64,000 bases of DNA, from positions 62,001-126,000 of the forward strand of contig NZ_JAALLS010000011.1 in assembly GCF_011059105.1 (NCBI RefSeq), given 5' to 3'. Every line of letters starts with the position of its first letter. The first letter of the stretch is position 1. The notes below the pieces were generated by a model. The model was not told the DNA's origin. It worked only from the letters and a program-made list of their open reading frames with translations, and ran no database searches. Below are positions 45,627-48,205 of the stretch, piece after piece. Both the position numbers and the translations under genes were made by a program. This DNA comes from Fodinibius halophilus (lineage in GTDB: Bacteria; Bacteroidota; Rhodothermia; Balneolales; Balneolaceae).

Positions 45627-46724
45627 CTACTTGATACTCTTAAAGTAGAGATCTAGCAGCATTTGGGCTGCCTTAAAAGAGCTAAGTTTCCCTTCTAACA
45701 CCTTTTTTTCTATGGATCGTTTTTGTTTTTTTACATCGGGGTTATCATAGAAATGGTCAGTCAGCTTATTGCTAATGGTATCATACATCCAGTGTTTGGC
45801 CTGGCGGTTGCGCTTATCTTGGAAATAGCCATTTTCTTTGGTGAGTTTCATGTACTTTTGGATGATGTCCCAAATTTCCTCGATCCCTTTCCCGGTTAAG
45901 GCCGAACAGGTTGTTACCTCCGGCGACCAGCCGGATTTCGTTTCGGGATAGAGATGCAAAGCATTTTTATACTCCCGAACAGCCTGGGTGACTGTCTTTT
46001 CTGCGGCTTCATCAATTTTATTAATGGCAATGGTATCAGCCATCTCCATAATACCTCTTTTGATACCCTGCAGTTCATCACCGGCCCCGGCCAGCATTAA
46101 CAGCAGAAAGAAATCGACCATAGAATGTACAGCCGTTTCTGATTGGCCCACGCCTACCGTTTCAATAAAGATGGTATCATATCCGGCCGCCTCACAAAGG
46201 TAGATCGTTTCGCGTGTTTTTCGTGCTACGCCGCCCAGAGAGCCCGCCGTGGGCGAGGGGCGGATGAATGCATCGTCGTTGGTAGCAAGGGTCTCCATGC
46301 GCGTTTTATCGCCCAGTATGCTGCCTTTGGTTCGGGTGCTGCTTGGGTCAATGGCCATCACCGCCAACTTCTTTCCCTGTTCTATGATGTGGTTCCCCAA
46401 TGATTCAATGAAGGTGCTTTTGCCAACGCCGGGTACCCCGGTAATACCAATACGGATAGAATTTCCGGTATCAGGCAAACACTCTTCAATAATATCCTGG
46501 GCCAGCTCCCTGTCTGAGGCTTTGGTACTCTCAATAAGGGTGATTGCCTGGCTGAGAATGGTACGGTCTCCGCTTTTGATACCGTTCACATAATCCTCAA
46601 GACCTAGGGACTTTCGTTTGTTTTTAAAACGGTCCAATCCCTTGGTATTAATGGAGTTATTTTGATCTACTCCTTTGTTGACGGAAAGTGAAGAATCGTT
46701 ATTTGGATCTGAGTTTTCAGGCAT
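45627..46724 (-). CDS. meaB: Methylmalonyl-CoA mutase-associated GTPase MeaB
   Basis: A 365-aa GTPase of the MeaB/ArgK family that guards methylmalonyl-CoA mutase and helps load its cobalamin. The P-loop is GVPGVGKST (about residue 98) and the next switch reads AIDPSSTRTKGSILGDKTRM. NKID is in IAINKIDEA. Length is usual. It reads in the same direction as the mutA-mutB block, from which it is separated by tenA and the repeat-flanked DUF559 unit. Confidence 0.95.
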   Translation of the reverse strand: MPENSDPNNDSSLSVNKGVDQNNSINTKGLDRFKNKRKSLGLEDYVNGIKSGDRTILSQAITLIESTKASDRELAQDIIEECLPDTGNSIRIGITGVPGVGKSTFIESLGNHIIEQGKKLAVMAIDPSSTRTKGSILGDKTRMETLATNDDAFIRPSPTAGSLGGVARKTRETIYLCEAAGYDTIFIETVGVGQSETAVHSMVDFFLLLMLAGAGDELQGIKRGIMEMADTIAINKIDEAAEKTVTQAVREYKNALHLYPETKSGWSPEVTTCSALTGKGIEEIWDIIQKYMKLTKENGYFQDKRNRQAKHWMYDTISNKLTDHFYDNPDVKKQKRSIEKKVLEGKLSSFKAAQMLLDLYFKSIK

Positions 46725-46754
46725 TACAAAAACTTATATATACTCCCCAAAAAC

Positions 46755-46908
46755 GGGAGATAAAATTTATCCCTCCTCGAGGAGGGTGCCCAAGCCCGTG
46801 AGTTTTCGGGATTGGGCGGGAGGTGTATGTTTAAATAGAAGTGAGGTTTGACACCCCACCCTTCGGCACAAAACCCAGCCGAAGTACTCCCCTCAAGGGG
46901 AGATGGTT
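46755..46908 (+). repeat. 154-bp direct repeat, copy A
   Basis: This copy starts GGGAGATAAAATTTATCCC and ends CAAGGGGAGATGGTT. Most positions match copy B at 47333-47485 (about nine in ten by eye). Inside are the 16-bp palindrome CCCTCCTCGAGGAGGG, the hairpin CTTCGGC...GCCGAAG and CTCCCC-TCAA-GGGGAG. Its last base directly precedes the stop codon of the DUF559 gene, read on the minus strand. Confidence 0.85.
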
Positions 46909-47283
46909 TTAGGTATTAAGTTTTATCCAATTTTCAATTATTTGAACTACAGAATCAATATCCTGTTTAATTTCCTTATTATCGAATCTAAGAAAATGTA
47001 TATCATAGGATTCTATTTTTTGTTGTCGCTCTAAATCTTCGGTACTAGCCTGGGGATGTTGGTGAACACCACCGTCTACCTCAATAGCCAGCATTAATTC
47101 ATGGCAGTAGAAGTCAACAATAAACTCAAGTATGGGTACTTGACGATGGAATTGATAGCCCAACCTCTTTCTCCTGATTCTTTGCCATAATAGCACCTCG
47201 GCATGAGTCATATTCTTCCGGAGGTTTCTCGCCAACTTTTTAAGCTCAGGGTTATATGGGATTATTTTGTTTTTCGACATCAT
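46909..47283 (-). CDS. DUF559 endonuclease-like protein, flanked by direct repeats
   Basis: A 124-aa protein of the DUF559/Vsr-like PD-(D/E)XK family. The start region is KKLARNLRKNMTHAEVLLW, followed by GYQFHRQVPI, the nuclease core FIVDFYCHELMLAIEVDGGVH, and a C-terminal FLRFDNKEIKQDID. The Asp and the E-V-D of the core fit the family's metal site. It lies between direct repeats A and B. The first ATG of the frame is 47304; 47283 is chosen for the MMSKNK start (a second ATG is at 47280). The function of the family is unknown, but it resembles short-patch repair endonucleases. Confidence 0.82.
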   Translation of the reverse strand: MMSKNKIIPYNPELKKLARNLRKNMTHAEVLLWQRIRRKRLGYQFHRQVPILEFIVDFYCHELMLAIEVDGGVHQHPQASTEDLERQQKIESYDIHFLRFDNKEIKQDIDSVVQIIENWIKLNT

Positions 47284-47332
47284 GATTAGTAAATGGACAC
47301 CCATCTGTCGCGAGGCGACTTTTCCCTCCGAG

Positions 47333-47485
47333 GGGAGATAAAATTTATCCCTCCTCGAGGAGGGGGCCCGAGCCCGTGGGTTTTCGGGATTGGGTGGGAG
47401 GTGTATGTTAGACTAAAATGAGGTTTTACACCCCACCCTTCGGCTCAAAACCCAGCCGAAGTACTCCCCTCAAGGGGAGATGGTT
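47333..47485 (+). repeat. 153-bp direct repeat, copy B
   Basis: Direct repeat of copy A (46755-46908), about nine in ten bases the same, with the same CCCTCCTCGAGGAGGG palindrome and hairpins. It starts 50 bases upstream of the DUF559 start and ends 18 bases downstream of the tenA-like gene's stop codon. A GTCGC-GAG-GCGAC palindrome lies just before it, at about 47307-47319. Confidence 0.85.
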
Positions 47486-47503
47486 CGACAGATATTATGG
47501 TTT

Positions 47504-48205
47504 TTATAAATAAGCACTATCAAAAAATGCTTGTTCACAATCCAGTGATTGTTCAAATAATTCTGAAATTTCCTGCTGTCTTTCTGTAGAAAGTGTTGGA
47601 CCAATTTGATCAAGTTGATTTCGTAGCCAGTCCACAAATGAACGGAATTCGGGATTAGCATGTAAGCTAACCCATTCACCAAAATAAAACTTTGAATAAG
47701 AACGTTCTGATATCCGGCTGGCCCAGCTTAGGTAGCTCCATTCAGCAACAATAAATACTGTAATTATGTTGGCATAATTTAATGATCGTCCTGCCTCGGC
47801 CATGAGCTGTTGAAATTTTTTCGTTGCCGGCAGTAGTTGTGGATCAGTTTGATCCTTTTCAGGGATATCTAAAGCCTCGAAAGATCGCTGAAAATAGGTA
47901 TTCTCTTCACTGGTTACTTGCCCCAAAAAATTGACCAAGGGAATCCGATCCTCCAGTGAGGGAGCGGTACCAATGGCATGGCCGATAAGTTTTACCAGTT
48001 GATCAACAAACGCATAGTCTTGTACCAAGTATTGGCTGAATGTATCTTTATCCAAAGATTCTTCTCCCAGTTCATTGGTAAAACGGTGATTTATGACAGA
48101 CTCCCATTTCTCTTGATGTATTGCTTTAAGCCAGTTTGTAAAACGACCATTAGACTTTTGTTCTGTCCATTCTTCAAAAGAAGTTTTTGATTGTAGCGTA
48201 TCCAT
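47504..48205 (-). CDS. TenA/thiaminase-II family protein (TenA_E-like)
   Basis: A 233-aa helical protein of the TENA/THI-4 family. QYLVQDYAFVDQLVKLIGH fits the first helices and AEWSYLSWASRI the active-site region. In classic TenA the catalytic Cys lies in LLPCYW; here this spot reads VAEWS, so the nucleophile may be Glu, as in the TenA_E branch that salvages thiamine breakdown products. It follows the mutB gene by 60 bases on the same strand. thiD lies 15 kb away. The role with methylmalonyl-CoA genes is unclear. Confidence 0.8.
   Translation of the reverse strand: MDTLQSKTSFEEWTEQKSNGRFTNWLKAIHQEKWESVINHRFTNELGEESLDKDTFSQYLVQDYAFVDQLVKLIGHAIGTAPSLEDRIPLVNFLGQVTSEENTYFQRSFEALDIPEKDQTDPQLLPATKKFQQLMAEAGRSLNYANIITVFIVAEWSYLSWASRISERSYSKFYFGEWVSLHANPEFRSFVDWLRNQLDQIGPTLSTERQQEISELFEQSLDCEQAFFDSAYL

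Follow-up and report, generated by a model that had tools for sequence, protein, structure and literature searches.

A short nuclease-like gene in Fodinibius halophilus lies between two long direct repeats, inside a block of methylmalonyl-CoA mutase genes. Do the gene and its repeats form a mobile unit, and if so, what are the ends of that unit and what moves it? We addressed this in a 64-kb window, the whole stretch of DNA analyzed here (assembly GCF_011059105.1, contig NZ_JAALLS010000011.1, positions 62,001 to 126,000 of the forward strand), in the rest of the host genome, and in related loci elsewhere. The gene belongs to the DUF559 family, and together with the palindromic elements around it, it is probably a widespread selfish mobile unit whose movement is driven by DUF559.

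Composition of the repeats and of the nuclease gene

The first-pass annotation of this DNA described two direct repeats of about 154 bp, and both are present. Repeat A (46755 to 46908) and its direct copy, repeat B (47333 to 47485), match in two segments, 46755 to 46840 with 47333 to 47418 (91%) and 46839 to 46908 with 47416 to 47485 (96%), spaced by 578 and 577, respectively. Both repeats contain a perfect copy of the 16-bp palindrome CCCTCCTCGAGGAGGG, as had been claimed (46771 to 46786 and 47349 to 47364). The enclosed gene (46909 to 47304, minus strand; 131 amino acids as called) is indeed nuclease-like and matches PF04480, DUF559 (E = 5e-29; 100.8 bits against a curated cutoff of 20.6). 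It is the sole open reading frame of at least 80 amino acids between the repeats, where no known transposase family was found. Repeat A ends one base from the DUF559 stop codon (46909 to 46911), again as annotated. The other edge, said to lie 50 bp from the gene start, depends on the start codon chosen: repeat B begins 29 bp upstream of the first ATG and 53 bp upstream of the third ATG (residue 9), the latter being close to the stated distance. The gene may start at residue 9 (ATG at 47280), where the paralogues line up in the alignment.

Each 154-bp repeat is built from two elements in inverted orientation, with tails facing each other, and an element comprises a pyrimidine/purine palindrome, a spacer or second hairpin, and a G-rich tail. 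This layout is that of the intrastrand triplex motifs called TM or PIT, and we use the latter name below. PIT 1 (46771 to 46825, plus strand) is composed of the palindrome CCCTCCTCGAGGAGGG, a 31-nt hairpin spacer, and the tail GGGAGGTG; PIT 2 (46853 to 46902, minus strand) has the palindrome CTCCCCTTGAGGGGAG, a 27-nt hairpin spacer, and the tail GTGGGGT. Their copies in repeat B, of the same makeup, are PIT 3 (47349 to 47403, plus strand) and PIT 4 (47430 to 47479, minus strand). Under purine-motif triplex rules, the tail is read backwards against the purine arm, with G.GC, A.AT, and T.AT as the triplets. PIT 1 obeys these rules at 8 of 8 positions and PIT 2 at 7 of 7, and all four window elements have zero mismatches across pyrimidine arm, purine arm, and third strand. 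These PITs may fold into triplexes in vivo. The palindrome-plus-tail element, rather than the 154-bp direct repeat, is the general hallmark of the unit.

With spacers of up to 8 nt, our rule-based detector found no elements in the 64-kb window; with spacers of up to 45 nt, it found four, all inside the two repeats. Across 400 kb of the host genome sampled apart from the DUF559 loci, the corresponding counts were three and four, so the elements beside the window DUF559 are not a product of chance. The second loop of the window PITs (27 to 31 nt) is outside the 1- to 6-nt loops of the ITxF search as given in the excerpted text of PMC4666352. Long spacers form hairpins more often than expected, with a mean longest stem of 4.5 against 3.15 after shuffling (highest of 500 shuffles, 3.49), in a test of 67 distinct spacers that include some chance pairings of neighboring elements.

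The repeat is not a simple dispersed sequence. A 181-bp query spanning repeat A matched seven places in the genome, namely, the two repeats and five cores of about 55 bp. This answers the whole-genome count that had been proposed: the full 154-bp repeat occurs twice only, and none of the five cores is close to a DUF559 gene (on a shared contig, the smallest distance exceeds 18 kb). With only two full copies, the family has to be defined by its architecture. The host genome contains seven DUF559 loci at unrelated places, two of them with an in-frame stop. All seven have a rule-obeying element within 400 bp; at six it has a spacer of 8 nt or less, and the window locus has only the form with a long hairpin spacer.

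For the window protein, Pfam returned only DUF559 and the related MTES_1575 model, the NCBIfam YcjD-type model stayed below its cutoff, and the single PADLOC match, a weak one, was to a model for type II methyl-directed restriction enzymes. An AlphaFold model (pLDDT, 85.9) matched NGO0050, itself DUF559-like (3hrl; Z = 14.6), the homing endonuclease I-Bth0305I (3r3p; Z = 12.2), and Vsr (1cw0 and 1vsr; Z = 10.6 and 9.9). Sequence profiles agreed for 3hrl (E = 1e-24) and 3r3p (E = 6e-4), and with Foldseek alone, the Vsr match was weak (E of about 1). Vsr is a mismatch-repair nicking enzyme. Residues E36, E75, D77, H81, and D90 are invariant in 24 DUF559 sequences, and D64 is nearly so. These conserved acidic and histidine residues fit an active nuclease of PD-(D/E)XK/Vsr-like fold, a fit that falls short of proof. 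The window DUF559 shares its modeled fold with I-Bth0305I and Vsr; it differs in that no intron was found at the window copy and in being bracketed by palindromes. It sits between genes, and no intron family matched positions 46500 to 47700 up to an E value of 1 (Rfam). On these tests of the window copy, it is not an intron- or intein-borne homing element.

Co-location and co-divergence of DUF559 and PITs

We next examined DUF559 loci in other genomes, taking the best-scoring 80 of at least 566 confirmed relatives, a nonrandom set in which related loci inflate the counts. Most of these best 80 are from Bacteroidota; the phyla, assigned for 63 of the 66 loci that have strict elements, also include Cyanobacteriota, Planctomycetota, Nitrospirota, Fidelibacterota, Calditrichota, Ignavibacteriota, Chloroflexota, Chlorobiota, and Spirochaetota. 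An early hairpin detector (all-pyrimidine arm of at least 7) missed 18 of the best 80 loci, and allowing shorter arms and longer spacers in a later rule reduced the misses to 4. Under the strict rule, 66 of the 80 had an element. With hairpin spacers allowed, an element lay within 400 bp of the gene at 76 of the 80, compared to 40 of 1,054 control placements in the same loci; the four loci with none in that range were L068, L125, L126, and L128. Within this best-80 set, the density of strict elements was 5.90 per kb at less than 100 bp from the gene match, 1.60 at 100 to 200 bp, 0.78 at 200 to 400 bp, 0.25 at 400 to 800 bp, and 0.03 to 0.06 beyond 800 bp. The tail pointed toward the gene in 82 of the 93 strict elements within 100 bp.

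Co-location was also seen in a second set, for which the detector was fixed beforehand. This set comprised 16 loci from 16 of 27 plasmid or chromid records (Cyanobacteriota, Pseudomonadota, and Deinococcota), with a higher background than the first. Elements with long spacers allowed were found at 14 of the 16 loci versus 68 of 556 control placements, and strict elements were found at 10 of 16 versus 45 of 556; L294 and L296 were the two loci without an element.

In Escherichia coli K-12, ycjD is a DUF559 gene (167 bits), although our PF04480 control search gave no match in its E. coli control genome, a difference of tool or strain. The 20 kb around ycjD contain one element, the same under three detector settings, less than 200 bp past the stop codon; a second, degenerate element at the end of ycjD was seen by eye.

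The elements around a DUF559 gene behave as paired ends. Among the 35 two-sided strict loci of the best 80, 30 are inverted (28 with tails in and 2 with tails out), and ends from the same locus are more alike than ends from different loci (0.926 versus 0.769; 0 of 10,000 permutations). Two end arrangements occur, with tails inward mainly in intergenic units and tails outward in most in-frame units, so unit ends are not uniform. The tail also matches its own arm: the fit is perfect in 61 of 102 nearest all-pyrimidine hairpins (63 loci of the best 80), against a mean of 21.3 and a maximum of 34 in 1,000 arm shuffles and against 14 under the parallel rule. Related loci inflate this count, yet several arm types each bear their own tail. 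Hairpins at gene ends are common in bacteria, and the elements might accordingly be plain transcription terminators or mRNA hairpins that flank a short gene by coincidence. We regard this as highly improbable. It is already contradicted by elements that stand on both sides of the gene and also inside open reading frames, and obedience to the third-strand rule, absence from the transposase loci compared below, and polymorphic presence speak against it as well.

DUF559 and palindrome type diverge together, within families too. On a tree of 66 DUF559 proteins from the best 80, built from few columns and with many weak forks, palindrome type changes 20 times, against a mean of 40 and a minimum of 34 when types are shuffled. 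With shuffling only within the family or next rank, the mean was 29.8 and the minimum was 22 (0 of 1,000 at or below 20). Mucilaginibacter and Pontibacter each have at least two palindrome types, which fall in separate parts of the tree.

We also surveyed 148 genomes of the phylum with the pattern CCCCTCN{2,10}GAGGGGN{2,6}GGGGTG, using presence/absence statistics that ignore phylogeny. The pattern occurs in 34 genomes, and a reversed-pattern control occurs in none of the 148. DUF559 occurs in 30 of the 34 genomes with the pattern and in 48 of the 114 without it (P = 1.3e-6); outside the host's own family, the proportions are 16 of 19 and 44 of 110 (P = 3.8e-4).

The PITs could instead be miniature elements moved by another enzyme, for instance, a Y1 transposase of the RAYT/TnpA-REP type acting in trans, with DUF559 as cargo or a repair helper. 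Genes of this Y1_Tnp type are frequent in the phylum, being found in 106 of the 148 genomes, and their link to the PIT pattern is weak (30 of 34 genomes with it and 76 of 114 without it; P = 0.016), and four of the 34 genomes with the pattern (G053, G114, G152, and G096) have no DUF559. In addition, according to the excerpted text of PMC12308824, a DUF559 gene of Legionella pneumophila lies in a repeated segment with a transposase, with three copies and recombination hotspots; DUF559 therefore does not always travel alone. We nevertheless consider this explanation unlikely. Outside the host's own family, the Y1 association drops to a P value of 0.18, compared with 3.8e-4 for DUF559. At the level of individual loci, none of the 30 own-family loci of Y1 (PF01797), the transposase family compared, has a PIT within 400 bp under either the strict or the long-spacer setting, versus 27 of 35 (strict) and 31 of 35 (long-spacer) own-family DUF559 loci, where weak partial matches account for two of the four loci missed. 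A cargo role would also be unexpected for DUF559 because palindrome type tracks its phylogeny.

One of the four genomes with the pattern and no DUF559 match, G096, holds 20 pattern copies, partly in tandem arrays (L337 to L340). No candidate enzyme was seen by eye among the open reading frames of two of the four stretches. A second mover or a lost enzyme is possible for these arrays.

Occupied, empty, and intermediate sites

The genes around the window unit are those named in the first-pass annotation, meaB, tenA, and mutA/mutB. meaB (45627 to 46724, minus strand) flanks the occupied site on one side; on the other, a tenA-like gene (47504 to 48205, minus strand) stands between mutB and the unit. 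The comparison with relatives that the annotation had called for revealed empty sites: in 10 of 11 congeners, mutB directly adjoins meaB, with neither tenA nor DUF559. The annotation had overlooked that tenA, too, is missing from the junction in those 10 genomes. The tenA-like gene is at most a candidate member of the unit. Genome G007 has a DUF559 gene beside meaB (74% identical protein) with different palindromes, at a point where the contig ends. A different palindrome, AACCCTGCAGGTTTTGAAAACCTGCAGGGTGTT, was noted at the otherwise empty mutB-meaB junction of genome G001 (L028).

Because we found empty sites, gene-less repeat cores, and DUF559 at many unrelated places, the opposite outcome, with repeats confined to this locus and DUF559 always at this junction, did not arise. 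These same findings support the annotation's suggestion of a mobile cassette or selfish nuclease-plus-palindrome pair.

Units also lie in frame within other genes. DUF559 loci in large frames were initially meant as a PIT-free negative control, which was dropped when they proved to be in-frame insertions, most with PITs; they are therefore used here as evidence. The hosts are genes for LeuRS, MetH, HsdR, HsdM, and other methyltransferases, as recognized by reading their sequences. A rule-obeying PIT is missing on one side in L177, L185, and L192 and on both sides in L175 and L262.

At one position in LeuRS, empty, single-element, dimer, and full states occur at the same site. Among 30 loci read (61 genomes searched), two hold a full unit, one holds a gene-less dimer, and three hold a single element; 22 have a plain short linker, and two have other linkers without an element. 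Two of the empty loci belong to the genus in which both full units occur. At one position in MetH (30 loci read; 57 genomes), three loci contain DUF559, one contains a stretch resembling an element residue, and 26 have plain linkers. Recent copying is seen in congener G008, where two DUF559 units separated by about 3.25 kb share 99.63% identity across 540 nt and have unrelated flanks, a recent 540-bp duplication. The identity ends 2 nt outside a PIT tail on the left and inside an apparent PIT dimer on the right. Visual inspection revealed no target site duplication at LeuRS or in G008, in comparisons with genomes that are mostly too diverged. Inverted ends and nonautonomous derivatives are found here as in insertion sequences and MITEs.

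The nearest characterized fold to that of DUF559 is the homing endonuclease I-Bth0305I, relatives carry in-frame units at matching positions in MetH and LeuRS, and G007 has a DUF559 gene beside meaB. DUF559 could then be a homing-type enzyme that cleaves alleles lacking the element at a single site and, following gene transfer, is spread through allelic conversion, the PITs being structural or transcriptional accessories and not ends. Several observations make this quite improbable in our view. Units occupy many unrelated sites (seven in the host genome), the LeuRS site also holds a gene-less dimer and single PITs, the G008 copy is 3.25 kb from its near-identical twin, and the match between the protein tree and palindrome type suggests that the palindrome is the substrate.

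Several further insertions were noted in passing. DUF559 is fused in frame to the start of hemF (coproporphyrinogen oxidase, as read from sequence) in four genomes of the genus (L010, L134, L141, and L148), with PIT sequence near the junction, the insertion being kept as a fusion. In L174, L198, and L255, PITs or gene-less dimers lie in frame within apparent methyltransferase and leuS genes and add proline- and glycine-rich stretches to the protein. DUF559 follows the apparent end of ruvB in two genomes (L057 and L117, by eye). On cyanobacterial plasmids, it adjoins a gene annotated as pglX (L291) and lies within a 1,621-amino-acid open reading frame between brxC and pglZ (L295). With the HsdM- and HsdR-like hosts, these plasmid loci indicate that restriction and defense genes may be frequent hosts.

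A possible mechanism and comparison with known systems

If DUF559 and its PITs form one mobile unit, a mechanism can be sketched. DUF559 would recognize its own family of PITs when these are extruded as a hairpin or triplex where DNA is supercoiled or single stranded, as on the lagging strand, and would nick or cut at or near them. Host repair and recombination would then copy the unit to new places. Gene-less PIT dimers and single PITs would be nonautonomous or decayed derivatives, and recombination between flanking PIT dimers, such as the two 154-bp repeats, could excise the gene and leave one dimer behind. Binding and cutting of PITs by DUF559, to which co-location, inverted symmetry, and co-divergence point, are steps we infer, as is repair-based copying, and the idea that the triplex or hairpin is the DUF559 substrate seems to us evenly balanced between right and wrong. 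We know of no chemistry by which a lone PD-(D/E)XK nuclease acts as a transposase or joins ends. Host repair would therefore be needed, or another factor is missing, and the copying step is the weakest link of the mechanism.

PITs themselves are known. Holder et al. (2015; PMC4666352) described such motifs as intrastrand triplex DNA, present in multiple copies in more than 260 genomes; according to the excerpted text, the TM_ECO triplex forms in vitro and the motifs are linked to instability, no triplex footprint was seen in vivo, inverted motif pairs occur in E. coli, and mobility genes were never found around TM_ECO sites. The words DUF, endonuclease, and ycjD are absent from that text. Our elements share with these motifs the hairpin and the G-rich third strand placed by purine-motif rules, and E. 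coli ycjD has such a motif downstream; they differ in that DUF559 is proposed here as the partner gene and in that the window copies have a hairpin in the second loop. DUF559 may thus supply the mobility gene that scattered PITs were reported to lack. Our search of open-access papers, with preprints outside its scope, found none that joins DUF559 with such palindromes.

A close functional parallel is the REP/REPIN-RAYT system, in which, as far as the excerpted text of Di Nocera et al. (2013; PMC3733652) goes, a small nuclease/transposase gene likewise lies between palindromes, with inverted dimers and scattered copies that lack the gene. The enzyme of the present unit is of the PD-(D/E)XK type and not a Y1 tyrosine enzyme, and the GTAG/CGTC tag is missing: neither GTAG nor CGTC occurs on either strand of the two 154-bp repeats. 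The DUF559-PIT unit is not a RAYT system, since both enzyme family and tag fail. By analogy, the best reading is that it works like REP-RAYT or like an insertion sequence with miniature derivatives. Caulobacter VsrA, another protein with a DUF559 domain, is required for the SOS response that arises in the absence of the methyltransferase gene scmA (PMC12907096). The excerpted text of that paper differs from our reading in reporting VsrA as a putative mismatch-repair enzyme, with palindromes unmentioned.

A wider reading, which we hold with as much doubt as confidence, is that these units are a class of selfish mobile elements in at least a dozen bacterial phyla, whose lone PD-(D/E)XK nuclease would act on a triplex or hairpin end and spread both itself and gene-less copies, also in frame inside housekeeping genes (leuS and metH, for example). 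Under that reading, the TM motifs of E. coli and scattered PITs elsewhere would be remains of the class. DUF559 is a common nuclease family of which little is known functionally, and intrastrand triplex repeats occur in hundreds of genomes; pairing the two makes both testable, with one enzyme, one substrate, and one mobility assay. If true, the pairing would add a REP-RAYT-like class of elements with a different enzyme fold, open the prospect that purine-motif DNA triplexes serve a biological function, and account for the unusual in-frame inserts of some housekeeping proteins.

Two observations concern repeats named elsewhere. Downstream of the DUF559 gene in L293 is a rhizobial element with a TCTCCCCC palindrome, a hairpin spacer, and a GAGGGGG tail, which we take to resemble the RIME-type repeats of rhizobia. 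At cutoff, no Rfam family matched in 12 loci. Below threshold, the whalefall-1 RNA model (RF01762) spans three of the four window PITs end to end (46767 to 46825, 47345 to 47403, and 47429 to 47483), with 16.7 to 17.8 bits against a cutoff of 37 and E values of 0.13 to 0.3. According to the excerpted text of PMC2864571, the 2010 description of whalefall-1 drew solely on whale-fall sequence. Whalefall-1 may be a DNA element of the PIT type instead of an RNA.
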